Below are positions 3,230 through 17,979 of a stretch of 20,762 bases of DNA, piece after piece (the stretch's first letter is position 1; each line of letters starts with the position of its first letter). The stretch is from a virus, in the IMG/VR virus record IMGVR_UViG_3300010354_000853, positions 1-20,762 of that record. One strand, given 5' to 3'. The notes under the pieces are model-generated. The model did no database searches. It worked only from the letters and a program-made list of their open reading frames with translations, and was not told the DNA's origin. A program made the position numbers and the translations under genes.

Positions 3230-4057
3230 ATGTTTAATCCGGAAGATCGCGCTGGATTCGACCAAACTTGGAGTCAGGCTGTAAATGATTACCACAGCTC
3301 ACCAGGTGGTACCATTTCGGGTTTTGTAACCAAGCACAACCCTGATGGTACGATTTCCGTTTTGTCCGCAAGCTCAGGCGGGGAACTTGTGCTGGGAAGC
3401 GTGCGGAAAGCCGCAGGTGGGGTTGTAGGACCCGGCACCGGCCAGATTGACGTACCAGGGATCGGCACCGAAGTAAAACTCACCAACAACCAGTCGCGGT
3501 CCTATGGAAACGCCAAGAACTACGTGTCCTTGGGAAACGTGTTTTCTTCAGATTTTCCACACCCAACGCACCCGTCGCTCTTTGACCCCAAAACCAAAAA
3601 GCTCAAACTCGGCACTTATGGCTACCAAGGCGGCCTTGCCGTAGGGGACAACACCACACCCGCTTCGGTACATTTCCACGACACCGATGGCGGCTATCAC
3701 GACCTGACAATGGGTAAGCGCACTGACAGAAGGTTTGGCGCCATCGACAATTCCGCGGACGGGCCTGCTGTAACGCCAGATGATGTTTCAGGCATGAAAG
3801 CCGGTAATGGTATTGCGCTAGCACACAATGCTATTGCTGACGTACCGCTTGTAGACGTTGATGCTGCTTCGGATCTTACTGCTTTGTCAGACGTGTTTGG
3901 TAATTCGTCTACAAATTTGGGTTTGTCCGCTATTTCCATGGAAAACGGCGCAAACAGTTTTTCTGATACAGTAGGAAAACAGGCTGATGCACTTGCAATT
4001 GCCAACTGGGCAGAGGATGCTGGGTATGGTGAAAGTGAGCCGGACGACTTGTACTAA
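3230..4057 (+). CDS. Baseplate spike protein with OB-fold-like N-terminal domain
   Basis: This is probably the part of the central spike that sits on the hub. Residues about 26-101 show the pattern of gp5/gpV-type OB domains: Gly-Thr-Ile-Ser-Gly-x-Val, a D-G-T-I turn, G-P-G at 67-69, then V-P-G-I-G-T-E-V (75-82) and a final strand V-S-L-G-N. The rest is unusual. Residues about 105-165 are rich in His, Pro and Gly with several H-x-H-like pairs, and the last 80 residues are Ala/Asp/Ser-rich and probably helical or disordered. There is no lysozyme domain and no repetitive beta-helix, unlike T4 gp5 or P2 gpV. GAGGA at 3221-3225 supports the ATG at 3230. The stop TAA shares one base with the ATG of the next gene. 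Confidence 0.6.
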   Translation: MFNPEDRAGFDQTWSQAVNDYHSSPGGTISGFVTKHNPDGTISVLSASSGGELVLGSVRKAAGGVVGPGTGQIDVPGIGTEVKLTNNQSRSYGNAKNYVSLGNVFSSDFPHPTHPSLFDPKTKKLKLGTYGYQGGLAVGDNTTPASVHFHDTDGGYHDLTMGKRTDRRFGAIDNSADGPAVTPDDVSGMKAGNGIALAHNAIADVPLVDVDAASDLTALSDVFGNSSTNLGLSAISMENGANSFSDTVGKQADALAIANWAEDAGYGESEPDDLY

Positions 4058-6540
4058 TGGAAGACAAGGACGAGTTTGATAATATCAGTACAGTTGAATA
4101 CTCACTGACTGATAACTATAGCGCTGCGCCGTCTTTTGGCGTTTCTGCCGAAGAAGAGTTTACCGACGATCCCGTACCGGCGGTCGTACCTGCGGCACCG
4201 TCTATTCCAACACCAGAGGGCTTTCCCGAATTTCCTCTGCCCACGGTGCCCGGGCTTCCAAATATTCCACAACCAAAGTTGGATATTCCCGGTGTAGCGC
4301 TTCCAGCGATTCCTGACGGTCAGCTAGCAGCTTTGGTGCCACCCGCGCCAACTGCGCTGATGGACAAGGTAAAAAACGACATCGGTGACCTTAAGCCCGA
4401 GCAAAAGCTGTCTCAGGCTACCTCGGTGCTAAGCTTTCCTTCCGAGCCACAAGCTATCAGCAAAGATATTGCCAAGGTTGCTCCAAAGGTTGCCGAAGAC
4501 ATTCTGCAACAGGTAGTAAAGAACACTACCGCGCTGTTTACCGGCTTCTTTGTTCCTAATGCAGGTATTCTGCAGATGATCACAGGTGTCATCGGGCAAG
4601 GCCTTGCAATAGGGTCACAGGCGTTGACCATGTATGGTCAGGCCGTGTCTGCCTATACCGCTCTGATCAAGACCAAGGAGCAGCTCGAGGACGCTCTGAA
4701 AAACGGTTTTGCCAGTGTGATGAACCAGTTGTCTGGTTTGACCGGCACAAGGCAGGTGCCTACCGGATTGCGCAACCCGCTTTCTTCAGATGTTCCTGAA
4801 CACGAACTGGCAACTGACAAGGCCAATCGAGCGGATTGGCCTAACGGGCCGGACGTGGCTCAAGATCCCTTGGCAAACCTCAGTAACAGTGTGCGCATGG
4901 TCGAAGACATGCACAGCTTGGCAACCGGGCTGAGTTCTGCAGAAAAAGCTACTGCCGTGCTCGGCAAGTCCTACTCGTTCTTGGCGCAGGGTTTGGGCAA
5001 GCCTGCACTTGGGCTTCAGATGGACGGGATGCTGCGGCTTCACACCTTGAACTCCGTAAATGTGCGCGGTGCTGAAGCAACCAGTGCTTCTACCCTGAAG
5101 GAACACAATTTACGAGAGTTGAAGAAGGCAGTAGAGCAAGGCGGTGCTCTACAGCAAGGTACCGTCAAGGGAACATTGGCAGGAGACGTAACAGGAGCCT
5201 GCGCAGGGGTGGTGGCAAACGCTGCCGTGAACGGTGCCATATCGGGCAGTGGCTCTGGCACACTGTCAGGAGAGCTGACAGCTCAGATCGGCAAGGCCCA
5301 AGTTGCTGGCGGTACGGTACAGCCGGACGGTTCCATTACCGGCGCTACCGTGACCGTACAGTCGCTTCAAGACGTTGGCATCAGCAACGCATCCGGCAAT
5401 GTCAGTGTGCAGGGTACTCTTACAGGAGCCACCAGCAACGCCTCTTTCACTGGCGAGGCCAACGGCTTTGTAGAAGGCTCAATGACGGGTTCGCTTAGCG
5501 GTACTGTTGAAGCCGCCGGCACACAGACCCCTGCTGTGGTGAAAGATGCAACGGTTTCCGGGTTGTCCGGTACAGGCTCGGTCAATGGTGTAGGAGAAGT
5601 AACTGGGACAGGGGTAGTTACCGGTGAGGTTTCCGGTAGCCTTTCGGGCGGTGCGGTGTCTGGTGCAGAAGTTTCTGGTGGAACTGTAGCAGGAGCCACT
5701 ATCACCAACCCCGTTTATGGTCCCGATGGAGCTCTTGAGGGTGGCACACTCACAGGCACTGCGCAGAACGTTGCAACTCTGGGTGGAACTACCACAGGTC
5801 AGCTGACGGGAACTGCAAACGGTTCGTTCTCTGGTAACGGCAAAGCCAGCGTCCAAGGCAAGGCCAAGGTTACAGCTACTGGCGGTACGATAAACGGCGG
5901 CAAATGCCTACTAAGCGCTCCCAGTTCCGCAGCCGACCTGAAAGCAAAGCTTGCTGCTTTGAAGGGCAAGGGCACCGGGGCAATGCCAGGAAATATCCTT
6001 GAGTTAGGTTATGGGGATGATCCAGCTTCTTTGGGTCGAGGATACCTGCAAGCCCTTCCGGGAAAGATAGCAGATAACTTGGGTTCGGCAAACGGACGTT
6101 TGCTGGATGAGTACATGACATCGCCTTCGGCCGACTTGGATAGTCTGACACCCCTCCTGCCAGACTTGTTGCTACCAGCCGATCCCGTACTGCAGCAGTT
6201 GATTGAAGCTCTTAGAACCATGCAAGAGCTGATCATCTATGTAGAAGCCCTGCCGGACGATACCATCAGTTTAATGCAACAGAAAGTAACTCAGGTAGGT
6301 GCTGACTTCCTGTTCTTTATGCAAGTAATCCGAAACCAAGCGCCCGAGTTTGGCGACAGAACACGATTTGCCGCTAACTACCTCAGGCGAAGTTTTACCT
6401 ACAACCAGAGGCAGTTGGTAAGATTGCTGGCTTCCCGCTGGGATGAGCTGCAAACTACCGCCTCTCTAGTAGAAGATGAAACACTGAGAGCCGTTGTAGA
6501 GCGCGTGATGAGTTACCGCAAGAAGGTGTTCGGCCGATGA
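4057..6540 (+). CDS. Large virion protein with glycine-rich beta repeats, probable spike-associated protein
   Basis: I do not recognise a named family for this 827-residue product. In order it has an acidic start, a Pro-rich stretch (about 45-105) with repeated I-P/L-P pairs, a hydrophobic helical segment (about 165-215) followed by a charged helix, a linker, a long Gly/Thr/Ser/Val-rich region (362-615) of short strands with Gly every six to eight residues, and a helical C-terminal domain (about 620-827) ending in basic residues. The glycine region recalls beta-helix or beta-roll shafts. The start overlaps the preceding stop (TAATG) and the end overlaps the next gene (ATGA), so the three genes are probably translated together. 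By position it should belong to the spike or inner baseplate. The hydrophobic segment could also suggest a membrane-contacting or ejected role. Function is uncertain. Confidence 0.65.
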   Translation: MEDKDEFDNISTVEYSLTDNYSAAPSFGVSAEEEFTDDPVPAVVPAAPSIPTPEGFPEFPLPTVPGLPNIPQPKLDIPGVALPAIPDGQLAALVPPAPTALMDKVKNDIGDLKPEQKLSQATSVLSFPSEPQAISKDIAKVAPKVAEDILQQVVKNTTALFTGFFVPNAGILQMITGVIGQGLAIGSQALTMYGQAVSAYTALIKTKEQLEDALKNGFASVMNQLSGLTGTRQVPTGLRNPLSSDVPEHELATDKANRADWPNGPDVAQDPLANLSNSVRMVEDMHSLATGLSSAEKATAVLGKSYSFLAQGLGKPALGLQMDGMLRLHTLNSVNVRGAEATSASTLKEHNLRELKKAVEQGGALQQGTVKGTLAGDVTGACAGVVANAAVNGAISGSGSGTLSGELTAQIGKAQVAGGTVQPDGSITGATVTVQSLQDVGISNASGNVSVQGTLTGATSNASFTGEANGFVEGSMTGSLSGTVEAAGTQTPAVVKDATVSGLSGTGSVNGVGEVTGTGVVTGEVSGSLSGGAVSGAEVSGGTVAGATITNPVYGPDGALEGGTLTGTAQNVATLGGTTTGQLTGTANGSFSGNGKASVQGKAKVTATGGTINGGKCLLSAPSSAADLKAKLAALKGKGTGAMPGNILELGYGDDPASLGRGYLQALPGKIADNLGSANGRLLDEYMTSPSADLDSLTPLLPDLLLPADPVLQQLIEALRTMQELIIYVEALPDDTISLMQQKVTQVGADFLFFMQVIRNQAPEFGDRTRFAANYLRRSFTYNQRQLVRLLASRWDELQTTASLVEDETLRAVVERVMSYRKKVFGR
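5140..5901 (+). repeat. Glycine-rich short-strand repeat region in the 827-residue protein
   Basis: This encodes residues 362-615, an irregular array of short units such as G-T-L-x-G, G-S-L-S-G and G-x-V-x-G with almost no charged residues. Spacing of Gly is roughly six to eight residues, as in beta-helical shafts. The DNA shows no exact tandem period, so the pattern is selected at the protein level. Confidence 0.55.
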
Positions 6541-8015
6541 GCTTTAGCTTGTTCACCGATCTGCTTGACCAAGCAGAGAACACCAACCTTCTTGAGAACG
6601 TCCTCAAGGGCAAAGCCGGTTTGGACGGAGTTTTGCACACAGCTGGCTTTGCTGCAATGGGCCGCGCGGCTATGCTGCTAAACCAAGAGCAGGAGCCCAA
6701 GAACCTTTCACCCCGCATAGGTTCCATTCTGGGTGACGGGGCAGCGCACTTGGAAGGTAGTAGCCAGCCGACTGCAGTGGCCGGCTACATGCGAAGTGTG
6801 TCTGATGTTCTTGTGGACAACGGCAATCTGACTAGTGCGGCAAAGGCAGGAGTAAATCCTTCTGTCACCGCCACGCAGGAGGTAGTAAAGGATCTGCAGC
6901 TCAAAACTGCCGTAGCAAATGAGCAGCGAGCCCTCCAGCGGGGTGAGACGACTTCGGGTGGTGGTGAAGGTGCCAACGACGTTGACTTCAAGGCTGAAGG
7001 TTCTCAGACACAAGGCTACATTGACGGTGCTCTGGACCAACACAACACGACCATAAAGACTACTTTGACCACAACCATCCCCACGTTGGGAGCAATGGTC
7101 AAGTCAATCAAAGGTTTGAAGGTAGCAGACAGTGCGCTTGATGCCCGTGCGTCCTTTGTAAACGATCGAGTAAAGGATCTTACCAACGCCTTAGCGTCAA
7201 CAACCATCAAAAAGGTTAGTGGTGTTCAGCTTCAAAGAGTGTTTGAAGGTTACATACACGCAGCAAAATTTTCTCTGTTCAAAGCAGGGTCTAGTGTAGC
7301 CCTTGAAGCACCTAGTGTGCGTCTAGCGGGTCAGCTGCTTACAATGCAAGCCAATATTGTCCTGACTGAAGCCGACGATATCGGGTTTGTGGGGCAGTGG
7401 ATGAGCCAGCAGCTAAAGCACAGCTGGACTCTGGGTACGGAAAATATTGCTGCAGTGGCCAACACCAATCTGCTTCTTACAGCCGGCACCGCAAAGTATT
7501 ATGGCCAGCAGGGAACTACCATAGGCGACAAGAAAACCGTTGTGCTGGGAGTTGATACTGCAGGCGGATTGGTTCTTGACGATAGCGGCAGCATCAGTCT
7601 CGTCAACAACAAAAGATTAGGTATCAAGCTTTCCGAAAGCGGTTCGATACAGATTGCTGCGGCAAAAGCCGCGCAATTGGAGCTTACGGATCAGGGAAAG
7701 ATTGTTCTGCAGGCTAAGGATACTGCCACAACAAAAGCCAAGACCGTCGAGGTAATAGGCAATGACAAGGTAGTGATCAGAGTAGGAGGTTCGGCTATTG
7801 TAGTCAGCTCAAGCAAAATTGACCTGAACCCTTCCTCGGTACCGCAGGTTTCCAGTCCTGAGCAAACCAGTGTTGCTGACGTTCCTACGCTGGATATCGT
7901 GTTTGCCACGCCTCCAAAGCCCTCTGAAACACCTCAGCGCGAAGCAACTAGCCTTCCGGCCAAGGGTAAGAGAAACCCGATTCCTGCGCCTCTTCCGTAT
8001 AAGCCAAACGCCTAG
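6537..8015 (+). CDS. Central spike protein with VgrG/gp5-like beta-helix C-terminus
   Basis: This is probably the membrane-piercing needle of the baseplate. Residues 1-228 are mostly helical and of unknown family. From about 229 to 430 the protein becomes regular short strands, such as V-A-L-E-A-P-S-V-R-L, S-I-Q-I-A-A-A-K-A and K-I-V-L-Q-A-K-D. It ends in V-V-I-R-V-G-G-S-A-I-V-V-S-S-S-K-I-D-L (412-430), which closely matches the closing strands of T6SS VgrG and phage gp5/gpV needles. A Pro/Ser-rich tail of about 60 residues follows, which those families usually lack. It carries no lysozyme or OB domain; the gene two upstream supplies the OB part. The ATG at 6537 overlaps the preceding stop by four bases (ATGA). 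Confidence 0.65.
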   Translation: MSFSLFTDLLDQAENTNLLENVLKGKAGLDGVLHTAGFAAMGRAAMLLNQEQEPKNLSPRIGSILGDGAAHLEGSSQPTAVAGYMRSVSDVLVDNGNLTSAAKAGVNPSVTATQEVVKDLQLKTAVANEQRALQRGETTSGGGEGANDVDFKAEGSQTQGYIDGALDQHNTTIKTTLTTTIPTLGAMVKSIKGLKVADSALDARASFVNDRVKDLTNALASTTIKKVSGVQLQRVFEGYIHAAKFSLFKAGSSVALEAPSVRLAGQLLTMQANIVLTEADDIGFVGQWMSQQLKHSWTLGTENIAAVANTNLLLTAGTAKYYGQQGTTIGDKKTVVLGVDTAGGLVLDDSGSISLVNNKRLGIKLSESGSIQIAAAKAAQLELTDQGKIVLQAKDTATTKAKTVEVIGNDKVVIRVGGSAIVVSSSKIDLNPSSVPQVSSPEQTSVADVPTLDIVFATPPKPSETPQREATSLPAKGKRNPIPAPLPYKPNA

Positions 8016-8062: not shown

Positions 8063-8527
8063 TTGATTCTTGATCCCAAACAGCTTGGCACCGATATTGT
8101 CATCAGTGAGTCTGGTGACCTTGCTGTGTACGGGCGGGACTTTGACGCAATTGACGGCCCGGACCACGTAATCCTGCGGTTTGCTCGAGAGCTGATGAGC
8201 CCGGCTAATCTGCTGTCAACCTACTGCCGAGACGCCGGCGGCATTCAGGCTGTTGCCGAAGATTACGGCAATGAGGCTTTTTACCAGTTGTCAGAACCTC
8301 TTGACGACCAGTGGGTAGAAAGCGTCAAGCAGGCGATATACCTGGTTGCGGATGCTCAACCAAACCTAGAAATTGAAAATGTTGATTACCACGTACTCGA
8401 TCCCAACAAGGGTGTATTCGGTTTTGAGATTTTGGTGGCTGTAGACGGTGAAGCGCTAAAACGCCTTTACTTGGAAAACAGCGCGCTTGGTTTTAATGTG
8501 AGGGTCCTAGATGGCAATCGTACCTAA
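8063..8527 (+). CDS. Baseplate wedge protein, gp25/gpW/XkdS-like
   Basis: This is a small wedge subunit that in related contractile tails contacts the sheath and helps start its assembly. The 154-residue product has the family layout: an N-terminal strand pair D-I-V-I-S-E-S-G-D-L followed by a helix containing V-I-L-R-F-A-R-E-L (about 38-46), a central helix, then V-D-Y-H-V-L-D-P and a final strand G-F-E-I-L-V. Its length fits the gp25-like family (about 110-160). The start is TTG at 8063 with GGAGG upstream. The stop lies 17 bases inside the next gene, so the two are probably coupled. The gp25 - J - I-position order that follows is the classic order in P2-, Mu- and PBSX-type tails and supports the call. 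Confidence 0.8.
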   Translation: MILDPKQLGTDIVISESGDLAVYGRDFDAIDGPDHVILRFARELMSPANLLSTYCRDAGGIQAVAEDYGNEAFYQLSEPLDDQWVESVKQAIYLVADAQPNLEIENVDYHVLDPNKGVFGFEILVAVDGEALKRLYLENSALGFNVRVLDGNRT

Positions 8528-9608
8528 GACAGTCAATGATATCTTGACTGAAATCAGCGACTCTCTCGTAGATTCGTATGCCGTTTCTACCGACGTTGGG
8601 GCTGGAACAGTAATTGGCGCCCTTGTGCGTTCGTTTGCGGCACCCCTTGCAGACTTGTGGGCAAGCCTTGCTGACGTGGAACGAGATTCCAACATTGCTA
8701 CCGCTACGGGTGACAGTCTTGATCTGCTTGTGAACTCATTTGGTATGACACGCTCTCAGGGCAGCTCCGCAATGGGCTACGTAATTGCTCAACCGAAAGC
8801 ACTGACTAACGTGGGTGTTGTGACTGAAGGTTCAAACTTTATCTATGGAAACCTGCTCTTGGTTGTTGGTAGCGATACGGCTTTGCAGGCTCCCTACTCA
8901 CGAATTCCTGTAACGGCAGGTACTCTGGGTGCAGACTTCAACCTGCCCGCCGGTACGGTAGTTCTTTCGACAAATCCGACCCTCAACACTCAGTTTTCTT
9001 TTGTTGTCGGTAACCAGCTAAACGGAGCGAACTTACCAGAGATAGGTCTCGTCGGCGGGCAAGATCCTGAGTCAGATACAGAGCTCAGGGCGCGCTTTGC
9101 ATCCTACCTACAGTCGCTCACCAGAGCTACTTACCAAGCTGTACTACAAGCCCTGCAAAGCATTCCGTCACTGAAATCGGTTGCTCTTCTTGATGCTACA
9201 CCAATGCCCGGGTTTATCTCTGTATACGTTGATGACAACAGTGCTGCTACTGAGGTTTCTGAGGAGATCAAGACTGCCGTAGACCAAGCGTTATACGAGT
9301 GGAAAGCCGCAGGAGTCGGTGTTCGCCTCTACATGCTGGACAAGGTCGTAGCGCCGGTAACAATCAACTTGGTCGTAGACTCAGCCAGTATACCCGCCAC
9401 GGTGCAGCAAACCGTAAGGCAGGCCATCATCGCGTTGTTGAATGGCTATGCGCAGGGTCAGCCGCTATACGTGAGCAAGCTGGTAGACGTAGCGTTTAAC
9501 ACTGCTGGGGTTGTGGACGTCAAAGTCGTTTCACCGGCTGAAGATGTAGCCGTAGGAACTCACCAGGCTTTCAGAGCGTCAGCGGTAACGGTCAATGTCA
9601 CCATTTAG
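8511..9608 (+). CDS. Baseplate J-like wedge protein (gp6/gpJ/XkdT family)
   Basis: This is the core wedge protein that forms the iris-like ring around the hub in contractile baseplates. The 365 residues show the family pattern. The N-terminal helices contain D-V-G-A-G-T-V-I-G-A-L and a segment ending G-D-S-L-D-L-L. The middle beta domain has A-G-T-L-G-A-D-F-N-L-P-A-G-T-V (in the family this region is G-x-x-x-N-x-P-x-G-T). Then comes the hallmark G-G-x-D-x-E-S-D-x-E-L-R-A-R (about 181-194), and a C-terminal V-Y-V-D-D segment with two alternating helices and strands. GAGGG at 8500-8504 supports the ATG at 8511. It overlaps the gp25-like gene by 17 bases and the next gene by 14. Confidence 0.85.
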   Translation: MAIVPKTVNDILTEISDSLVDSYAVSTDVGAGTVIGALVRSFAAPLADLWASLADVERDSNIATATGDSLDLLVNSFGMTRSQGSSAMGYVIAQPKALTNVGVVTEGSNFIYGNLLLVVGSDTALQAPYSRIPVTAGTLGADFNLPAGTVVLSTNPTLNTQFSFVVGNQLNGANLPEIGLVGGQDPESDTELRARFASYLQSLTRATYQAVLQALQSIPSLKSVALLDATPMPGFISVYVDDNSAATEVSEEIKTAVDQALYEWKAAGVGVRLYMLDKVVAPVTINLVVDSASIPATVQQTVRQAIIALLNGYAQGQPLYVSKLVDVAFNTAGVVDVKVVSPAEDVAVGTHQAFRASAVTVNVTI

Positions 9609-10623
9609 CCGTAACCCGATCAGACCCAGCAACAGCGCCCTCAGGAAATATGTTCTGAGGGCAATAGCGCGCCAGATACCCATTGCACCCGCTTGGTTTT
9701 CTGCCGAAAGCTTGCAGGCAGACAAGGAGCTAGGTAAGCACCTGCGTGCTTGGAGTGTAGTACTCGGAGATGCTGCAACGGCGGTCATGCAGCAGAAGTA
9801 CAACATTCTACTTTCATCCGCCGAGGGTTCAAATCTTGATACTATTGCCCAAGCTTTGGGCTTCAAGAGAAAAGCAGGCGAAACTGACGACGCTTACGCT
9901 ACGAGGGTTTCAAGCGAACTTACCGTAGACCGCGTTACTCCGTCGGCAATGGAAGCCATTCTTACAAGGCTGGATTCTACTGCTTCAAGTTTTCTATTTG
10001 AACCTTGGACTTACTTGAAGTTCAGAAGTGACACCAAGCCCCGCTCAGGGCGTACACGACGTGCAGACACTTGGTATTTCCGCGGCGGTGTAGCCGACCT
10101 AGTCCACGACAGGTACGTGGAGGATTACTACAGCGCTGCCCTAAAGTCCTTGGCGGCTGGTGTAAAAGGTTACTTTACCCTGCAGATGGAAGGGCAAGTA
10201 GAAGCCAGTGACGATGCTACTTCTGCTATCTGGCCCGATACCAACGAGCAGTTGGGTTTCATCACCAACAGTGTTGAAGTCACCACCGATAGTGTTGATT
10301 CTTATACTGAGATAGACGGTGAGATTCTTGTCCAAAAACCGGCCGGGTTGCAGGTAGACCAGTTTATTGAGGTGCTTGTCACAACAACACCGCAAGTTCT
10401 TGTGACAGCTGGGCTGATTTTTGAAAACCTGTCCAGAAATTATCGCCTAGAAGCGGATATGTTACAGTCTGCACTTACTGGAACTCCTGTGTATACTGTA
10501 GTTGTAGAGGACCCGTTTGATCTTCTGCAGCATACTAATATCCAACCCGCACCCATCATCCTGAATGGTCTTGCAGAACTGGACGATTCGTGGACACTTG
10601 GTGGGTATGGGGTGTTCATGTAG
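9595..10623 (+). CDS. Baseplate/tail protein in the gpI/XkdU position
   Basis: In P2- and PBSX-type tails the gene after J encodes gpI or XkdU, which completes the wedge, and position suggests the same here. The 342-residue protein has a basic N-terminus, then helical segments including N-L-D-T-I-A-Q-A-L-G-F and D-D-A-Y-A-T-R-V (about 78-105), an architecture seen in XkdU/gpI-like and J-like helical domains. A beta domain holds S-G-R-T-R-R-A-D-T-W-Y-F-R-G-G-V (about 148-163), and a beta-rich C-terminal half follows. It is longer than P2 gpI (about 180), so the C-terminal half is extra. The ATG at 9595 lies inside the J gene and has only a weak SD, so coupling is likely. A strong hairpin lies at 9637-9662 within its first 25 codons. 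A gp7-like wedge role is an alternative. Confidence 0.55.
   Translation: MSPFSRNPIRPSNSALRKYVLRAIARQIPIAPAWFSAESLQADKELGKHLRAWSVVLGDAATAVMQQKYNILLSSAEGSNLDTIAQALGFKRKAGETDDAYATRVSSELTVDRVTPSAMEAILTRLDSTASSFLFEPWTYLKFRSDTKPRSGRTRRADTWYFRGGVADLVHDRYVEDYYSAALKSLAAGVKGYFTLQMEGQVEASDDATSAIWPDTNEQLGFITNSVEVTTDSVDSYTEIDGEILVQKPAGLQVDQFIEVLVTTTPQVLVTAGLIFENLSRNYRLEADMLQSALTGTPVYTVVVEDPFDLLQHTNIQPAPIILNGLAELDDSWTLGGYGVFM
9637..9662 (+). other. Eight-bp perfect inverted repeat near the start of the gpI-position gene
   Basis: GCCCTCAG and CTGAGGGC are separated by ten bases. With a G-U and an A-U pair inside, the stem reaches ten base pairs around a six-base loop. It begins 42 bases after the start codon and 29 bases after the end of the J gene. 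No T-run follows, so it is not a standard terminator. It may shape translation or mRNA stability, or be a chance product of the codons. Confidence 0.5.
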
Positions 10624-10647
10624 ACCCAAACGGAGAAACTGGAACAG

Positions 10648-11421
10648 ATGCTACCGGCGACCACGAAATATATCGGTGTAACCACCATCGGCGGTCACGT
10701 CGCGCGTGCAATTGACTTCCAAGCTCGGGAAGACGTCTATGCGGTTCTGGGCAAGAGCAGCCCGTGGGTACCCACCGCGCAGGATCCCACACTGTCTGAT
10801 GACAATCCGCCAGTGCCCTCGCCTACGGCGACAGTGTTGGACGATCCGATTGTCGCAAAGAAGTGCGTCCTGAACTTGGTAGTTCCGGATGCTGCCGGCA
10901 GCATTACTGCCTACGGGCAGAAGTGGCGTCTGGTCACGCCAACCGAAGCCGCAGCACAAGGCGCCCGCTGGGTATTGGTCACTGCCAGCTTTGACTATAA
11001 CGAAGCTCCAGTGTCAGCCTTTGACTCGTTTCTGACCAGCAATGTCGCAGTTGGCGCAACGACGCTTCAGCTGAACACTGTCGTAGGCTACCAAGTCGGC
11101 CACGTACTGCAGCTGGGTGTAGCCGGGCAAGAGGTAACCGTTACGAACGTCAATGCAGGTACCGGTGTGTTGACAATTGACGCTGCTATGGTAACCGCAC
11201 TGCCCAAGGGTACCTACGTAACCAACACCAGCGTACCCACAAAGTTCTCATACCGGCAGGTAGCAGTAGTGTCGCACGCTACCTCTACTGGTCTTCCGGG
11301 TCAGCACCTTGTTCCGCATGGCTTCCTCGAGGACCCTATTCTGGTCTACTATTACAACACCACACCTATTCCTCGTGCACTCAACCGCCGGGATTCGCTG
11401 GTGTTGATCCTTACCTTCTAG
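10648..11421 (+). CDS. Baseplate wedge protein resembling T4 gp8
   Basis: In T4, gp8 is a dimeric wedge protein that binds gp10, gp7 and gp6. The 257-residue product matches it at both ends as I remember the T4 sequence. Residues 28-40 (E-D-V-Y-A-V-L-G-K-S-S-P-W) followed by an acidic then P-P-x-P stretch (51-59) mirror the gp8 segment F-I-T-F-G-R-S-x-P-W and its P-P-Y-P. The C-terminus (V-Y-Y-Y-N-x-x-P-I-P-R-A then L-V-L-I-L-T-F) mirrors gp8's M-E-N-R-P-P-I and final I-L-F-T-F. Between them, about residues 129-190 form a small beta module (V-A-V-G-A-T-T-L-Q-L ... Y-Q-V-G-H-V-L-Q-L) that I do not recall in gp8. T4 gp8 is about 334 residues, so this is shorter. A weak SD precedes the ATG. The call rests on recalled motifs. 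Confidence 0.55.
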   Translation: MLPATTKYIGVTTIGGHVARAIDFQAREDVYAVLGKSSPWVPTAQDPTLSDDNPPVPSPTATVLDDPIVAKKCVLNLVVPDAAGSITAYGQKWRLVTPTEAAAQGARWVLVTASFDYNEAPVSAFDSFLTSNVAVGATTLQLNTVVGYQVGHVLQLGVAGQEVTVTNVNAGTGVLTIDAAMVTALPKGTYVTNTSVPTKFSYRQVAVVSHATSTGLPGQHLVPHGFLEDPILVYYYNTTPIPRALNRRDSLVLILTF

Positions 11422-11430
11422 GAGCTACTC

Positions 11431-14400
11431 GTGGCCGAACCGTTTTACAGCCGCTACAGCCAGAAGGGCAAGGATTCTTTGGGCAATCCCATCGGGATGC
11501 CCGTGCCCTCCGGTACCAACCCGGACTTTGTGCTTACCGGACGGGAGCAGGGCTGGAAGTTTGTACAGGCTGTACCAGGCCGTGCAGATCAGGTTGCGGA
11601 GTTCAACGAAGTTCAGGAAATTCTGCAGGACCAGATCAAGGAACTTGGCGACTACGTACTACGTGACGGCCAGACCGTAGGTATTCAAATCCGCGTAGAC
11701 AAGACTGTCACTCCTGCCAAGCTGTACATTGAGTGGCAGAACCCCGCGGTACCTGGTCGTGTGTATGCCATGGGCCAGTTCCATCGTGTACCAGAGCAGA
11801 TGTCGCTAAGCTTGACGGATGGTTTTACAGCAACTGGTTTGGAAACTATTGCTTTCCGTATCGTCAAGCGCGTGCTGACGGAAGTCGAAGAAGCAGGGCT
11901 GTACGATCAGATCATTGGTGAAGAGAACTACGGCGCACCCGGTGCCTACCGCTGGGTTTACGACATCATTCCTGTGGTCAAGACAGATGCAAACCGCGAC
12001 ACGTACAGCGACAGCTACGACATCTGGATTTTGCAGGATGGTGATGTAAGGATCTCGGCAAATGATCAATTGGCCGAAGTGGACCGCCACCTGATCAGCT
12101 ACACGGACGATCTGTCAGGCAATTGCTTGGTCCGCGGTATGCGCGTGAGGGTTGAAGACAAGGACATCAATACACTACGGATTCTCGTGGACCGCGGGCG
12201 GGCCTATGTCAGCGGCCGTGCCGTGGGTTATAACACCACGACCGAGAAGACCACACCCAAGACCAAGACTGACGTCACCTTGGTTGCGGGCGAACCACTG
12301 GCATTGACCGTTGCCGACATTCCTTATGGCCAGTCTGCTGCCCCGACGCTGCAGAAGACCTACAGCTTGGTCAACAGCCCGATCAAGGTAGTGTCACAAC
12401 TGACTCTGCCGGTAGTCATCAAGAAGCAGGGACTGGTTGGTGATGTATTCAAGGTCAACGTCGCGGACCCGTTTGAAATCTACATTCCTGTCAGCCCACC
12501 CGTTTACGGCCCTCGTCTGAGTATCGTTTCGGTTACCGAGCTGGGGGCAGGTAGCGCTCGTACGGCAGTGATCTTTACGGCCACTTCCAGCGGTTTCCGT
12601 ACGTCGTCGGCAATGACTGGCAGGACCATTGAAGTAGTCTGGGTCTACAATGCGCTGCTCAACTACGGTACCGATTTCAATCTGACCTCTGGTGGCAAGC
12701 AACTGGACATCACGCGGGAGTCTTATAACTACCCTTCCAGCCTGCAGCTTGCCAGCACAGATACTGCCAGTTATGTCTACCCTGGCGTCGGCTCTACAAA
12801 GCTGACAGCAACTGCCACCGTAGGAGCAACACAGATTACGGTAGTGTCCACCGAGGGCCTCAAAGTCGGTCAACGCCTGTACCTTGGAAACAACCGCAAC
12901 CCCAGCAACGGTACTGCAGGGCAGCAGTCAAACAGCAGCTATGACGAATTGGTGTACATCAATGAAGTCAACAATAGCACCACACTTACCCTAAAGAGTG
13001 CACTAACTCGTGCCCACACGGCTGACCTAAACAGTGCTTCTGGGGATTCGCTGTACGGGGACAAGGACTACATCGGCCTCGCCAGCAATATCTACAGCGG
13101 TTCGGTAAACTACGCGTGGTTGCTTGACCGAATCGATATTGTCTATATCGACCAAGACAATAACATTGCCATTCAGGTCGGACAGAGCAACAAGCCGGCT
13201 TACGCGCCTTCACTACCACAAAATGTTTTGCCCATCGCCAAGTTGGTGATTCCGGCAAATGCAGAGGCAGCCGGTATCGCAGTCGAGCGCTTTGATGTGC
13301 AGCGCTTGGACCAGCAGGACCTGCAGAAGCTGCTCAAGCGGGTTGAGCGCGCCGAGTACAACGCGGCTATTCAGAACTTGCAGTTGCTTTCTTATACCAA
13401 GGCCAGCGCCAGCGGCTTAAACCTACGTGGCATTCTTACGGATCCATTCGTAAACACGGATATTCTTGAGGTCACTGCTATCAGGAATGAGAGCGATGAC
13501 TACGCACCCTACGTGCGTGACATCAGTGGTGATATCTCTATCAGCATCGACCCGGACAACGGCGTACTGTCACCCGCGCTGGACATGTTTACCAGCGCCT
13601 TGTCAGTCAACACCAACCTTTCTACCTGCTTTGCCGGCGCGCAGTCCATTGCGCTGTACCACACGCTTACAGGATCTGCCTCGGTTTCTAATACGGTTTA
13701 TACCGATACGGAAATCATCAGAGGCAGCAGCGTCACCGCTAAGCCAACGCTTTTGGTAGACACTGCGCACAACACTCTTCCTGTAACAACTACGGAAACG
13801 TTCCCATTTCTGAACGTCAATACCCGCACTGTAGAAAGCATTCCTTCAAAGCTGGAAGGCGGTTACTGGCGTCATCGGCAGAATGATGTGCCGTGGTTGG
13901 CCCAGCGCAGCATTTACTTTCCTTTGGAAGCAGTTTACGTCAAGGGCCGTAATATTCCTGCTGGGTCCTACACCATCGTTGTAGACGGTTACACCGTTCT
14001 GGAAAACGGTAACCCCAAGTCAGTAACGCCAAACGCCTCAGGTGACTTTAGTGTATCTGTTACGCTGCCGGAAACCACCATAAGCGGGCACAACTCTCGT
14101 ACGGTCAAGTTGGTGGATACTTCGGGGACAGTTGTTGCTACTACACTTATTGGTGCAAACATCAGCGAAACCTCATTTCTTCCGGTAGTAAACGACAGCT
14201 TGGCCGTAAGTCCGTACGTGCCCGTTGCTCAGACCTTCGCCTTTACCAAGGACACGTTCATTCGTGGGTTGAGCATTCGTCTTTCTGCCGTAGGTGCTGC
14301 TTCGGCTTGGCTCGAGGTGCAGGTTCGCAACACCGACGCTTCTGGTCAACCAGGAGATCGAATCTTGGCCCGCAAGCGGGTATTTGGTAACCAGCTGACT

Positions 14401-15687
14401 CCAAATATTCTGCAGGCCATCGAGTTTGACGGCGCTAACGGCACCTATGACCCGATCCTGTGTGAGGCCAACGTTACCTATGCCATCTGTTTTGTTGCAT
14501 CGGCAACCGACGCTTTTGTACTCAGCAAGGCTGTGGTTGGTAAGATCGACCAGAACAACGCTACGGTAGCGTCCAAGCCGATCGGCTCTGGCAATGTCTA
14601 CACCAGCCCGGATGGGTCCAGCTGGTTGGTTCAAACGAGCTCCAGCCTTGTGCTACAGCTGCGCGAGTGTCAGTTCAATGTCGACAAGAACTTGGTTGTT
14701 TTCAACCCTGTAAGCACGGAAGACTTCAGTGTAGATAAGCTGGCCTATCTACTGCCACGTGTCCAGCAGCTGCTACCCAAAACGACGTCCATCAAGTGGT
14801 CGTACACGATTGACAACGAGATCAATGAAACCGCTATTCCCGTAGACACCGACGGTACACTGGAACCCGAGGCCATCGCCAAATTGGCAACGCCGCCGAG
14901 TGCGCAGACCGTAACGCTACGTGCTCGCCTATATGGCAGCTCCTCGCTGAGCCCGCAGATCGGTCGTAACAACGCCAAGCTGTTGGTGTTCAACCCCAAG
15001 ACCGCTGGTGTGTACAAGTCACGCAAGGTCTCCGGTGTACCAACGTACAACAATGCACGGGTGACATTCCAGCTATACACCCTATCGGGCGATGATGCCG
15101 TGAAGGTCTTCTTTGCGCCATTTGGTGCAGCCGATGCCTACGCAGCATTTACAATCACGGGGAATGCCAAGGTTGGCGACAAGCTCAAGCTAGTCATCGA
15201 CGGCACCGAATACCTGATGCCCGCGTACGCACCGGCTGGTTCCCCGACACTAGCAGAGTTTGTCAGCACTGCGCAGGCATGGCTGGAATCGCAGACTACC
15301 TTTGGTCTGCTCAAGCGTGTTGACCTGGATAGCACAAACTACAAGTTCTACTTGTACCGCAAGAACAACCAAGCCTTTGTATCCGGCGATGTCGTGCCCG
15401 CCATCGTCAAAGGTGCAGACGCTACCAGCACACTTGCAATCAGTGGTTCTACCGAATACTCCTACAAGTCCGTCACGGGAACTCCGGTAAAGCAAGTAGC
15501 GGATACGTTGTACACGGAATATACCTATGATTTGAGTGTTCCTGTTGAAGAAACGGTCCATCCGGATTACAGTGTAGGTAATCAACCGCCGAAGTCATTC
15601 CGCGTACAGCTTGAGCTCAAGACCAGCTCAAATCTGACGCTTTATCCAAGGGTCCGTAATCTGTCAGTGATTGTCGCGAGCGTGTAG
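11431..15687 (+). CDS. Large DUF4815-type baseplate protein, probable fiber connector
   Basis: This 1418-residue structural protein probably sits at the baseplate rim and carries fibers. Its N-terminal 300 residues show the DUF4815 pattern: a helix E-F-N-E-V-Q-E-I-L-Q-D-Q-I-K-x-L-G-D, then L-R-D-G-Q-T-V, an A-Y-R-W-V-Y-D-I-I-P-V segment, and I-L-V-D-R-G-R-A-Y-V-S-G-R-A-V-G-Y. A small beta module (about 458-533) resembles the one in the preceding gp8-like protein. Coiled-coil-like residues follow near 610-650. A jelly-roll-like domain begins A-Q-T-F-A-F-T-K-D-T-F-I (about 933) and has the G-x-P-G-D-R-I-L-A pattern of phage carbohydrate-binding-type domains. The C-terminus is beta-rich. AGGAG at 11420-11424 supports the GTG at 11431. 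No catalytic motif is seen. Confidence 0.72.
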   Translation: MAEPFYSRYSQKGKDSLGNPIGMPVPSGTNPDFVLTGREQGWKFVQAVPGRADQVAEFNEVQEILQDQIKELGDYVLRDGQTVGIQIRVDKTVTPAKLYIEWQNPAVPGRVYAMGQFHRVPEQMSLSLTDGFTATGLETIAFRIVKRVLTEVEEAGLYDQIIGEENYGAPGAYRWVYDIIPVVKTDANRDTYSDSYDIWILQDGDVRISANDQLAEVDRHLISYTDDLSGNCLVRGMRVRVEDKDINTLRILVDRGRAYVSGRAVGYNTTTEKTTPKTKTDVTLVAGEPLALTVADIPYGQSAAPTLQKTYSLVNSPIKVVSQLTLPVVIKKQGLVGDVFKVNVADPFEIYIPVSPPVYGPRLSIVSVTELGAGSARTAVIFTATSSGFRTSSAMTGRTIEVVWVYNALLNYGTDFNLTSGGKQLDITRESYNYPSSLQLASTDTASYVYPGVGSTKLTATATVGATQITVVSTEGLKVGQRLYLGNNRNPSNGTAGQQSNSSYDELVYINEVNNSTTLTLKSALTRAHTADLNSASGDSLYGDKDYIGLASNIYSGSVNYAWLLDRIDIVYIDQDNNIAIQVGQSNKPAYAPSLPQNVLPIAKLVIPANAEAAGIAVERFDVQRLDQQDLQKLLKRVERAEYNAAIQNLQLLSYTKASASGLNLRGILTDPFVNTDILEVTAIRNESDDYAPYVRDISGDISISIDPDNGVLSPALDMFTSALSVNTNLSTCFAGAQSIALYHTLTGSASVSNTVYTDTEIIRGSSVTAKPTLLVDTAHNTLPVTTTETFPFLNVNTRTVESIPSKLEGGYWRHRQNDVPWLAQRSIYFPLEAVYVKGRNIPAGSYTIVVDGYTVLENGNPKSVTPNASGDFSVSVTLPETTISGHNSRTVKLVDTSGTVVATTLIGANISETSFLPVVNDSLAVSPYVPVAQTFAFTKDTFIRGLSIRLSAVGAASAWLEVQVRNTDASGQPGDRILARKRVFGNQLTPNILQAIEFDGANGTYDPILCEANVTYAICFVASATDAFVLSKAVVGKIDQNNATVASKPIGSGNVYTSPDGSSWLVQTSSSLVLQLRECQFNVDKNLVVFNPVSTEDFSVDKLAYLLPRVQQLLPKTTSIKWSYTIDNEINETAIPVDTDGTLEPEAIAKLATPPSAQTVTLRARLYGSSSLSPQIGRNNAKLLVFNPKTAGVYKSRKVSGVPTYNNARVTFQLYTLSGDDAVKVFFAPFGAADAYAAFTITGNAKVGDKLKLVIDGTEYLMPAYAPAGSPTLAEFVSTAQAWLESQTTFGLLKRVDLDSTNYKFYLYRKNNQAFVSGDVVPAIVKGADATSTLAISGSTEYSYKSVTGTPVKQVADTLYTEYTYDLSVPVEETVHPDYSVGNQPPKSFRVQLELKTSSNLTLYPRVRNLSVIVASV

Positions 15688-15688
15688 C

Positions 15689-15868
15689 ATGAATCAAGTC
15701 GTACCTGATCATGTCACGTGTGCCAACACGGGTGCTTGGATCTTTCGTCCGTCTAAGGGAGAGCAGGCTCTGGAACTGGTTAAGCAGCTTCTGGATTTGC
15801 TGGCGACTTCCCCCGAGCTACCGGCTTCGGTTGTTGAGGCTGTAGCAACGATTCGGAGGTCGGCATGA
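15689..15868 (+). CDS. Small hypothetical protein, 59 residues
   Basis: This small gene fills the space between the connector and the first fiber. ATG at 15689 directly follows the TAG at 15685-15687 with one base between, and its TGA overlaps the next ATG (ATGA). The product has a short N-terminal part with two aromatic residues and one Cys, then an amphipathic helix-rich C-terminal half (E-Q-A-L-E-L-V-K-Q-L-L-D-L-L, then a second helix ending R-R-S-A). I recognise no family. The tight fit between coupled genes argues that it is real. It could be a structural adaptor or assembly factor, which is inference from position only. Its SD is weak, so it is probably translated by coupling. Confidence 0.6.
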   Translation: MNQVVPDHVTCANTGAWIFRPSKGEQALELVKQLLDLLATSPELPASVVEAVATIRRSA

Positions 15869-17979
15869 GCGTTCTTGAGCCGATCAACCAGCAGCAGCTG
15901 CTGGCTGAGGGACTGGACACCATCAACCGCAACTTCAACACTCTGTTGAACATTGCGCAGGCCACTAAGGCATCGGACAACAGCTCGGGGCTCGTACCGC
16001 CGGTAACGCTGGACCGTGCGCCGGTAAATCTCATTCTCAACTCAGGCTTTGAAAAAGGTGATCTTGTCGGTTGGAGCGAAGACGACAACGGAGGCTCTGA
16101 TTCTGCAGATTCCAGTATTGTCGACACCATTGCTGCCAATGGTCGAAAGTCTTTGAAAGTCGAAGCGGTTGCACAGAATCACAGAGCCTACCAAGGTTTA
16201 GCAGTTGTCGCAGGACAGAGTCTCAGTGCCCGCGTAAGGTTGAAGGTTGAAAGCGCCGAAGCCGGTACGGTATCGTCCCTGCGCGTGGGTTTCTATGACG
16301 CGGCGGATGCACTGATTTTGGAAGAAACTGCTTCCGGCTCCATGACCAACATCACCACCTGGCAGGAGCTGGTTCTTGAAGGCTTGACCGTACCTGCCGA
16401 AGCTGCAAGCGCTTTGGTTGCCCTTGAGGTAGCTGCAGAGGGAACAGACGGCACTGCAGTCGTGTACTGGGACGATGCGCAGGCAAATCTGCTTGCAGAA
16501 CTTGCTGATTACACCGACAACAACGACTTGTTGGCGTACAACAAGTTCGTCATTCCTGAAGCTGCCAAGGGTTTGATGCTGGCACTGGATCATGGCATCT
16601 TTCTGGCGGCATCGCAGTTCTCGATCCGCCCTGGTCAGCTTGCCCTTGCCTACGAACCGGCCACCCCTGCTGTAGTTCAGCTGACTTGGTCTGGGCTGGG
16701 TGCAGGCATTACGTCGCCTAAGGCCTTGACACGTATTACTGGCAAGAACGAGCGCTACTGGCAATTACCTGTTGACTACAGTACCAATGTACTGGTCTTT
16801 GATCACGGACTGCTGCTGCGTCGTGACCAGTACCAAGTAGATGGCGACGTGGTCATTTTGAACTATGTGCCCAGCGACCAGCCGGCCGGCTTCCAGGTAA
16901 CGGCCGCTTGGGGCGCGGGCGGCCCCGGGATTACGCCGCCAACCGCGCTCGAGCGAATTCCCGGGGCTACGCCGCTTGATACACGCTACTGGCAACTACC
17001 GGAGGATTCCGGGGACAGCGTGCTGGTCTTCGATCACGGCATCGCGCTTGATGTACAGGACTACACGGTTGACCTTGGCAAACGCGTTGTCCAGCTTAAC
17101 TACTCACCAACCGGCAACCCTTTTGATATTTCTGCATCTTGGGGCTTCACAATGGACGGCCTGTTCATTGAAAATGCCGTGCTGTCGCCCAGTCCCAACG
17201 GCTCGGTGGTGCAGTTTACCATTCCGCAGGATCCCGTAGTAAGCAGTGTGCGCATTAGGGCAAAGCTCCTGAACGGGGAGGTGGTTTACTACGAACGTGG
17301 TGTAGATTACACCATTGAAGGCCGCAGGATCGTTTTTGCGGTGGCACCGCCAGCTTTCTCGACGTTGTTTGCTTCGATGATGGCGGTTGTACTGAATAAC
17401 GACCTATCGGTCTCCAAGGTCAACAACTTTGAGGCCGTAGCGTGGAACGCTACCGGTATCGGGACAACTGCACAGGGCAACAAGTTGGTAGCCGTTGGTC
17501 CAGACGGCAAGTTACCTAACAACATCGTACCAAACGTACCAACCGTTGATGGGTTTGGTGCCATCTCCACCGCGGATGGTTCAGTCGGTACATCCGGGGC
17601 GTCGGACAAGTTGATTGCAGTAGGCGCGGACGGTCGTTTCACCAATGCGCCACTACCCCAAGACATACAGCTCGGTGCAACCAATCTCTCTTTGGTAGAG
17701 ACTATCGGTTTGGATGTCGATGTCAACGACCTGACCGAGAAGTGGGAATACAACGCCGACGGTAGTCTCAAGTCTGTAAAGTGGTTGGATGCCACGAATT
17801 CGGCCAAAAAGACTATTACCTACGAGTACAACACCGATCTGACCATCAAGAAGCGTACTGATGTCATCAGCACTTTCGTAAACACTCGTGTAGGTAACCA
17901 GACTATTACCCGCACGGTTGTCAGAAACTACACTTACAATGTCGATGGCACCATGTCGGTAGCGAAGACGGTGAGCTAA
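15865..17979 (+). CDS. Modular tail fiber/adhesin with CBM-like domain and four beta repeats
   Basis: This is probably a receptor-binding or fiber protein. After a helical N-terminus (1-45) likely to attach to the baseplate, residues about 54-213 look like a carbohydrate-binding jelly roll: N-L-I-L-N-S-G-F-E-K-G-D-L-V-G-W at the start, a K-S-L-K-V-E-A strand, and V-V-Y-W-D-D-A-Q at the end, as in CBM4/9-like modules. Four beta repeats follow (about 222-293, 294-372, 373-432, 432-510); the second and third share R-Y-W-Q-L-P and V-L-V-F-D-H-G. Two copies of K-L-[VI]-A-V-G-x-D-G-[KR] follow. The C-terminal 80 residues are YD-repeat-like strands such as W-E-Y-N-A-D-G-S-L. GGAGG at 15855-15859 supports the ATG. 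Confidence 0.72.
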   Translation: MSVLEPINQQQLLAEGLDTINRNFNTLLNIAQATKASDNSSGLVPPVTLDRAPVNLILNSGFEKGDLVGWSEDDNGGSDSADSSIVDTIAANGRKSLKVEAVAQNHRAYQGLAVVAGQSLSARVRLKVESAEAGTVSSLRVGFYDAADALILEETASGSMTNITTWQELVLEGLTVPAEAASALVALEVAAEGTDGTAVVYWDDAQANLLAELADYTDNNDLLAYNKFVIPEAAKGLMLALDHGIFLAASQFSIRPGQLALAYEPATPAVVQLTWSGLGAGITSPKALTRITGKNERYWQLPVDYSTNVLVFDHGLLLRRDQYQVDGDVVILNYVPSDQPAGFQVTAAWGAGGPGITPPTALERIPGATPLDTRYWQLPEDSGDSVLVFDHGIALDVQDYTVDLGKRVVQLNYSPTGNPFDISASWGFTMDGLFIENAVLSPSPNGSVVQFTIPQDPVVSSVRIRAKLLNGEVVYYERGVDYTIEGRRIVFAVAPPAFSTLFASMMAVVLNNDLSVSKVNNFEAVAWNATGIGTTAQGNKLVAVGPDGKLPNNIVPNVPTVDGFGAISTADGSVGTSGASDKLIAVGADGRFTNAPLPQDIQLGATNLSLVETIGLDVDVNDLTEKWEYNADGSLKSVKWLDATNSAKKTITYEYNTDLTIKKRTDVISTFVNTRVGNQTITRTVVRNYTYNVDGTMSVAKTVS
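16528..17394 (+). repeat. Four diverged beta repeats in the CBM-bearing fiber
   Basis: Units start near 16528, 16744, 16981 and 17158 and are 60-80 residues long. The second and third are clearest, both with R-Y-W-Q-L-P, then V-L-V-F-D-H-G and a tyrosine strand after it. The first and last are more diverged. The DNA differs at many silent positions, so the copies are old. Confidence 0.6.

Follow-up and report, generated by a model that had tools for sequence, protein, structure and literature searches.

On balance, we favour the reading that this viral locus encodes the central spike of a contractile tail as a set of separate chains: a hub, an OB plug, and a needle that is formed by an 827- and a 492-residue protein and may include a beta-helix, with a PAAR tip probably encoded apart from these genes. 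The window (the whole stretch of DNA that was analysed, 20,762 bases) is the complete IMG/VR virus entry IMGVR_UViG_3300010354_000853, a single contig. Encoded on its plus strand are a tube-like protein, the hub, three spike-candidate ORFs, a protein at the gp25 position, Baseplate J, and additional proteins of wedge and fibre-like type (Table 1). The original prediction had placed the spike on three coupled genes, and the three ORFs, their sizes (275, 827, and 492 residues), and their 1-base (TAATG) and 4-base (ATGA) overlaps are all present as claimed. The gene order, hub, OB, 827/492, gp25 position, and gpJ, was counted in favour of the spike reading.

Table 1. Features of the 20,762-base window, with the evidence for each
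Feature	Position	Strand	Basis
Probable tail tube, 235 aa	822..1529	+	phrog_34837, E 3.8e-38
Baseplate hub, gp27-like spike part, 554 aa	1558..3222	+	phrog_177 (baseplate hub), E 3.4e-8; phrog_52 (tail protein), E 4e-6
Probable OB plug, 275 aa	3230..4057	+	Orthologue of P0002
OB-like stretch, about residues 27-105 of the 275-aa protein	3308..3544	+	Alignment A10 with six relatives
827-aa protein	4057..6540	+	N-terminal half of the relatives' 992-aa chain, plus insert
Glycine-rich insert, residues 337-627 of the 827-aa protein	5065..5937	+	21% Gly, period 4, no counterpart in the 992-aa chain
C-terminal domain, residues 628-820 of the 827-aa protein	5938..6516	+	Matches 360-557 of the 992-aa chain (blastp E 2e-14)
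ATGA start-stop overlap at the 827/492 split site	6537..6540	+	Sequence
Candidate needle, 492 aa	6537..8015	+	C-terminal half of the relatives' 992-aa chain
VgrG-like beta repeat, about residues 350-435 of the 492-aa protein	7584..7841	+	NF041249 (VgrG), E 0.009; DUF2345; 6u9e
Wedge protein, gp25/sheath-initiator position, 154 aa	8063..8527	+	Matches LMM01 gp100 and Microcoleus 31313
Baseplate J (gp6-like) wedge protein	8511..9608	+	PF04865, E 1.8e-15; phrog_6, E 3.8e-39

The genes on either side set the frame for this reading. The 235-aa protein is probably the tail tube, a role taken from gene position: its homologues lie directly after the sheath gene in LMM01 (gp92), the Microcoleus phage, and the contigs L017, L018, and L020. 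The 554-aa hub matched no Pfam family; it has homologues in LMM01 gp93 and Microcoleus 31301. The 154-aa wedge protein had no match in the family profile scans, and we infer that it takes the gp25 role; its orthologue in L002 also matches SPO1 gp14.1. Further downstream, the wedge genes at 9595-15687 (342, 257, and 1418 aa) resemble SPO1 gp15.1, gp16.1, and gp16.2. The window is thus mosaic, with Herelleviridae-type (SPO1-like) wedges against an LMM01-type core, whose tube-like and hub proteins match LMM01 and the Microcoleus phage.

The 275-aa protein probably carries an OB domain, a conclusion that comes by way of its orthologue in a relative, P0002 (60 bits, with E 5e-19 among 37 proteins). 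P0002 matched the VgrG model TIGR01646 at E 2.2e-4 over model positions 388-474 of 480, far under the cut-off, and PF04717 at E 1.1e-3; it was the only PF04717 place at E <=0.001 in the 205-kb record. An OB profile built from five distant relatives, leaving out both the 275-aa protein and P0002, ranked the P0002 gene first of 381 ORFs (E 3e-5); the runner-up, the 492-aa ORF, reached E 0.73, and the 275-aa gene was not in the best six. When P0002 was added to the profile, the 275-aa gene became the best window ORF (E 0.22). Set against the OB domain of T4 gp5 and P2 gpV, the OB matches of P0002 stay under the curated cut-offs and the 275-aa protein is silent alone. The predicted OB-like domain is therefore upheld through the orthologue (VgrG 2e-4, PF04717 1e-3, leave-out profile 3e-5), but not by the window protein itself, which had no significant family match in the phrog, Pfam, and NCBIfam scans.

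Structural databases were searched with the same proteins. P0002 alone found 9mlp at E 0.22, among three PDB matches, and the 275-aa/P0002 pair found no spike protein in the PDB. The profile of A10, an alignment of the hub-adjacent proteins from seven phages (the window and six relatives), matched 17 PDB sequences with E-values of up to 10, including VgrG, Afp8, and Pam3 spike chains. Twelve of these were named VgrG, T6SS, Afp8, or spike, three were cyanovirin-N, and one was ThiS-like; the remaining one, annotated 'Cytoplasmic protein', was the best match (E 0.0018). PF04717 was matched individually by three of the seven A10 members, the 275-aa protein not being one of them. When single proteins were used to scan the viral contigs, neither the 275- and 492-aa proteins nor gpJ retrieved a relative, and tblastn of phage records with the 275-aa protein was likewise empty. 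AlphaFold2 models of the 275- and 492-aa proteins, each computed with the orthologues from L002 and L004 (a near-identical pair), had mean pLDDT values of 32.3 and 33.8, respectively, and their strand patterns were given no weight.

Sequence comparison gives weak support to a VgrG-like beta-helix close to the C-terminus of the 492-aa protein. The best PDB match of residues 350-435 or so was the VgrG 6u9e (E 0.033), and the sole NCBIfam match of this end was the short VgrG model NF041249, of the Francisella type. Pfam scanning of the cut segment returned sarcoglycan (E 0.0047), DUF2345 (E 0.0049), and B_lectin (E 0.05), the boundaries having been picked after a scan of the whole protein in which the same three families scored 0.072, 0.083, and 0.17. 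The VgrG-like closing strands that had been predicted here are thus weakly supported (E 0.005-0.033, and 0.083 for DUF2345 with the whole protein, alongside unrelated families). Hydrophobic residues in the segment repeat at lag 8 (p 0.007, maximum over 40 lags); this signal is modest, because p fell under 0.03 in 6 of 16 combinations of segment and property, among them residues 1-320 of this protein at lag 28. A PDB search with the 492-aa alignment found no spike protein. In the relatives described below, the corresponding part of a 992-aa chain is shorter, repeats at lag 9 (p 0.023), and had no spike-family match in Pfam and NCBIfam. No OB match was found in the 492-, 827-, or 992-aa proteins in the Pfam and NCBIfam scans. 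Three neighbours show weak matches to the three VgrG parts, which was counted in favour of the spike reading: the hub (VgrG_rel, E 0.019), P0002 (2.2e-4), and the 492-aa protein (0.009).

Other spike and tip genes were sought in the related records. PAAR proteins were present in three of seven (the 205-kb and 195-kb records and LMM01), one region each (G001:C1:90426-90707, G004:C1:112884-113072, and LMM01 55795-56046), all away from the baseplate cluster; none was found in the other four records or among the 14 window proteins scanned. Two matches to PF18352 (E 0.02 and 0.03) were under the cut-off and outside the baseplate loci, and were disregarded. The relatives' records contained no second Phage_base_V place, and seven related records contained no Gp5_C or DUF2345 match at E <=0.1. 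The latter two profiles also miss the relatives' own needle candidates, and a needle as diverged as the 492-aa protein would escape them; these negative results therefore speak only in part against a complete spike gene elsewhere, and the relatives' records may be incomplete.

These results bear on a different account of the locus, in which the 275-aa OB protein and a PAAR tip form the whole of a short spike, and the 827- and 492-aa proteins serve elsewhere in the baseplate or in a fibre, their genes being adjacent by chance. The match of P0002 to VgrG extends up to position 474 of 480, so that the protein may hold the needle's first strands; some relatives have PAAR genes, and the resemblance of the 492-aa beta segment to VgrG is weak. 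Against this, VgrG is the best NCBIfam and PDB match of that very segment, and the 492-aa gene sits between the OB gene and the gene at the gp25 position. We regard the short spike as rather doubtful, and keep to the reading in which the 827- and 492-aa proteins belong to the needle.

The relationship between these two proteins became apparent from three related contigs of 205, 118, and 41 kb, which were recovered with the hub as query. They have different metagenome ids and are syntenic with the window as far as they extend; since they are near-identical where compared, they represent one lineage. In each of them, the counterpart of the 827- and 492-aa proteins is a single chain of 992 residues that lacks the glycine-rich insert. 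This chain (R_p992) scored 140.8 bits with the 827-aa protein and 185.3 bits with the 492-aa protein in phmmer. Its residues 31-329 match residues 41-336 of the 827-aa protein, residues 360-557 match 628-820 of the same protein, and residues 601-979 match 39-488 of the 492-aa protein, placing the break between the halves at about residues 557-587. When two proteins occur fused in a relative, this is commonly taken to mean that they interact. The fusion suggests that the 827- and 492-aa proteins touch and is the best evidence for a complex; they are probably neighbours within one assembly. It also alters the original prediction in one respect: an OB domain and a needle on separate chains remain the best reading of the locus, but the count of three genes is a lineage detail, as the relatives have a single 992-aa chain in place of 827/492. 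The direction of the change, split or fusion, is not polarised, because no outgroup aligns. Scans of the viral contigs with alignments of the 492- and 827-aa regions returned only the same three contigs, and tblastn of the 992-aa chain in phage records gave no match.

The insert that distinguishes the 827-aa protein from the 992-aa chain had been taken for a glycine-rich shaft. It is indeed rich in glycine, but its period is 4 rather than 8 (the repeat at lag 4 was reached in 0 of 2000 shuffles), and its hydrophobic residues have no period (p 0.63). These two properties make it ill-matched to a gp5-type helix. The insert had no match in 50,697 phage records by tblastn with the low-complexity filter on. 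As for the C-terminal domain that follows it, homology to L017_348, L018_382, and L020_472 was considered and found unsupported by profile comparison. A proline-rich motif of the FPxLPxLP type is common, by eye only, to the 827-aa protein, the 992-aa chain, LMM01 gp98, and Microcoleus 31310.

The junction between the 827- and 492-aa genes was inspected for signs that the two frames might in reality be one. The first start in the 492-aa frame is the ATG at 6537; the nearest upstream stop lies at 6477-6479 and another at 6444, so that the frame is open for only 19 codons before its ATG. An SD-like GAAGG precedes the ATGA, no base run longer than 3 occurs after 6477, and the region 6400-6560 contains no slippery heptamer (X XXY YYZ). 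The missing slippery site and the in-frame upstream stop together lead us to expect two polypeptides. A sequencing or assembly frameshift in what is truly one gene, as in the relative, would explain why the two parts match the 992-aa chain almost end to end, and the record is a single contig. The in-frame stops at 6444 and 6477, however, leave room for an indel only within roughly the final 20 codons, where the junction is a clean ATGA with the features just mentioned, making an error of this kind quite unlikely. A -1 programmed frameshift by which some of the 827-aa chains would continue into the 492-aa protein, for which the differing frames and their overlap at the stop might speak, is highly improbable and was rejected, given the absent heptamer and the 19 open codons. 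The original prediction had further derived a fixed ratio of the products from the gene overlaps. This part was abandoned, because such overlaps are common: among 26 pairs of neighbouring genes on the same strand in the LMM01 stretch, a hand count gave five with an overlap of 1 or 4 bases.

In the multi-chain spike that we favour, the 554-aa hub would close the tube, by homology, and the 275-aa protein would form the OB plug under it, a placement that combines the domain of the orthologue with a presumed location. The 827- and 492-aa chains, probably made by coupled re-initiation at the ATGA, would form the rest of the needle as one assembly, as their fusion suggests. A beta-helix with weak homology to VgrG may lie near the end of the 492-aa chain, and a separately encoded PAAR protein, of the kind in some relatives' records, would probably sharpen the tip. 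Contraction would then drive the stack through the host envelope. The trimer symmetry of this model is taken from T4, as described in PMC5924787. Since the 827/492 boundary falls between matched domains and the two chains would arise by coupled re-initiation, the assembled shape need not differ from that of the fused form.

The favoured arrangement has partial counterparts in known systems. According to PMC5924787, the T4 central spike consists of gp27, gp5, and gp5.4, with the OB domain and beta-helix of gp5 in one chain. The hub, OB domain, needle, and PAAR tip of T4 all have counterparts or candidates here or in the relatives, whereas the OB domain and beta-helix here seem to belong to separate genes, and about 1,150 further residues are encoded in between. 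The single-chain combination found in T4 gp5 and P2 gpV is on different ORFs both in the window and in L002; the spike-candidate proteins may nevertheless work like gp5. VgrG fuses gp27, OB, and beta-helix parts within 600-650 residues; here the parts are on separate ORFs, and none of the nine scanned proteins reached the curated VgrG cut-off. The VgrG of Francisella, according to the same source, is without the gp27-like head and, by modelling, without the OB fold, for which PdpA is the proposed supplier. The similarity is that our candidate needle chain has no OB match and that OB support lies in a neighbouring gene; the difference is that one protein is proposed for hub and OB in Francisella, whereas here they are separate and there is an extra partner of 827 residues.

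A spike protein that is single in one phage and spread over two genes in a relative has also been described for the Bacillus phages Vp4 and Deep-Blue: Gp188 and Gp186 of Deep-Blue each correspond to one end of Vp4 Gp111 (PMC11406892, section 10). The authors assigned the Deep-Blue parts to piercing and host binding, and that section contains no separation of an OB domain. Anabaena phage A-1(L) gp25 is a cyanophage central spike with an OB fold and a beta-strand domain, but has all of these in one chain (PMC10966104). Among the matches listed in a literature search, titles and abstract openings mentioned no split OB and needle in LMM01-type phages. Divided needles are thus already known from Francisella and Deep-Blue, and what is new is the 992-aa fused form of 827/492 without the insert, together with the OB-like start of the hub-adjacent gene in five further relatives.

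The locus also resembles those of a wider group of phages, which were recovered by scanning viral contigs with the hub and tube-like proteins. Scans of bacterial and archaeal genomes gave no match, nor did tblastn in phage records with either hub, and a PDB search with the hub pair found no spike protein. The tube-like, hub, gp25-position, and gpJ genes are collinear in Ma-LMM01 (gp92, gp93, gp100, and gp101), Microcoleus phage My-WqHQDG, and IMG/VR contig L018; L017 has the tube-like, hub, and gp25-position genes, and L020 the sheath, tube-like, and hub genes only. As in the window, Ma-LMM01 (gp92-gp101) and the Microcoleus phage have an OB-like gene after the hub. In contrast, this gene carries an amidase-like or beta-lactamase-like domain in these two phages and is followed by genes annotated as peptidases or amidases, and their large proteins share no detectable sequence with 827/492.

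An OB-like stretch opens the gene after the hub in all five of these relatives (LMM01, the Microcoleus phage, L017, L018, and L020), the gene being short in L020 (164 aa) and long in L017 (684 aa) and L018 (666 aa). LMM01 gp94 matched PF04717 at E 2.2e-5 and Amidase_3 at E 0.043, and in Microcoleus 31302 (L013:17352-19313) the OB-like N-terminus precedes a domain resembling class A beta-lactamases (NCBIfam E 2.6e-4, far under the cut-off). The OB plugs may carry exchangeable wall enzymes, amidase-like in LMM01 and beta-lactamase-like in the Microcoleus phage. PF04717 matched in the record of L017 (E 0.007, 13.4 bits) and had no match in the records of L018, L020, and the Microcoleus phage. In profile comparisons, the OB-like start of L017/L018 matched that of L020 at E 8.8e-5 (probability 60%) and that of LMM01/Microcoleus at E 6e-4 (29%), where hhalign E-values refer to single pairs, just as those of our small-set blastp and phmmer searches refer to sets of few sequences.

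Downstream of these genes, L017_561, L018_498, and L020_515 are linked together through L018_498 and were picked by eye as needle candidates. Pfam matched L018_498 to Lysozyme_like (E 0.02) and L020_515 to RNA_pol_RpbG (E 8e-4), and L017_561 to nothing; no spike family was found in the three by Pfam or by a PDB search with alignment A11. Their comparison with the 492-aa protein gave E >1 and hhalign probabilities of <=2.5%. In L017 and L018, the needle may instead lie inside the long OB genes. Gene boundaries have shifted elsewhere in the group as well: residues 1104-1176 of LMM01 gp98 (L011:17544-21077) match a separate 168-aa Microcoleus gene (L013:27251-27757) at E 8e-5. Since no profile matches the needle of these relatives, we can only infer a clade-wide separation of OB and needle genes. 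We tentatively raise the possibility, below an even chance in our view, that throughout the large LMM01-related myophages the OB plug is uncoupled from a hetero-oligomeric needle whose chains are cut and joined differently in each phage, with exchangeable wall enzymes on the plug and inserts, for example the glycine-rich one of the 827-aa protein, that lengthen the needle.

This assignment offers a testable spike function for baseplate genes of LMM01-type cyanophages and of their uncultured relatives that carry the annotation hypothetical. Moreover, the 992-aa chain and the 827- plus 492-aa proteins form a natural fused and unfused pair with which to ask whether a needle has to be a single unbroken chain in order to pierce a membrane. 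Two minor observations were also made. Tube-like genes occur as a tandem pair in L017 (3421-5108) and L002 (7955-9997). The 704-aa protein at 15865-17979 of the window has a CBM_4_9 carbohydrate-binding match at E 4e-5, just under the cut-off, and is perhaps a host-binding fibre.
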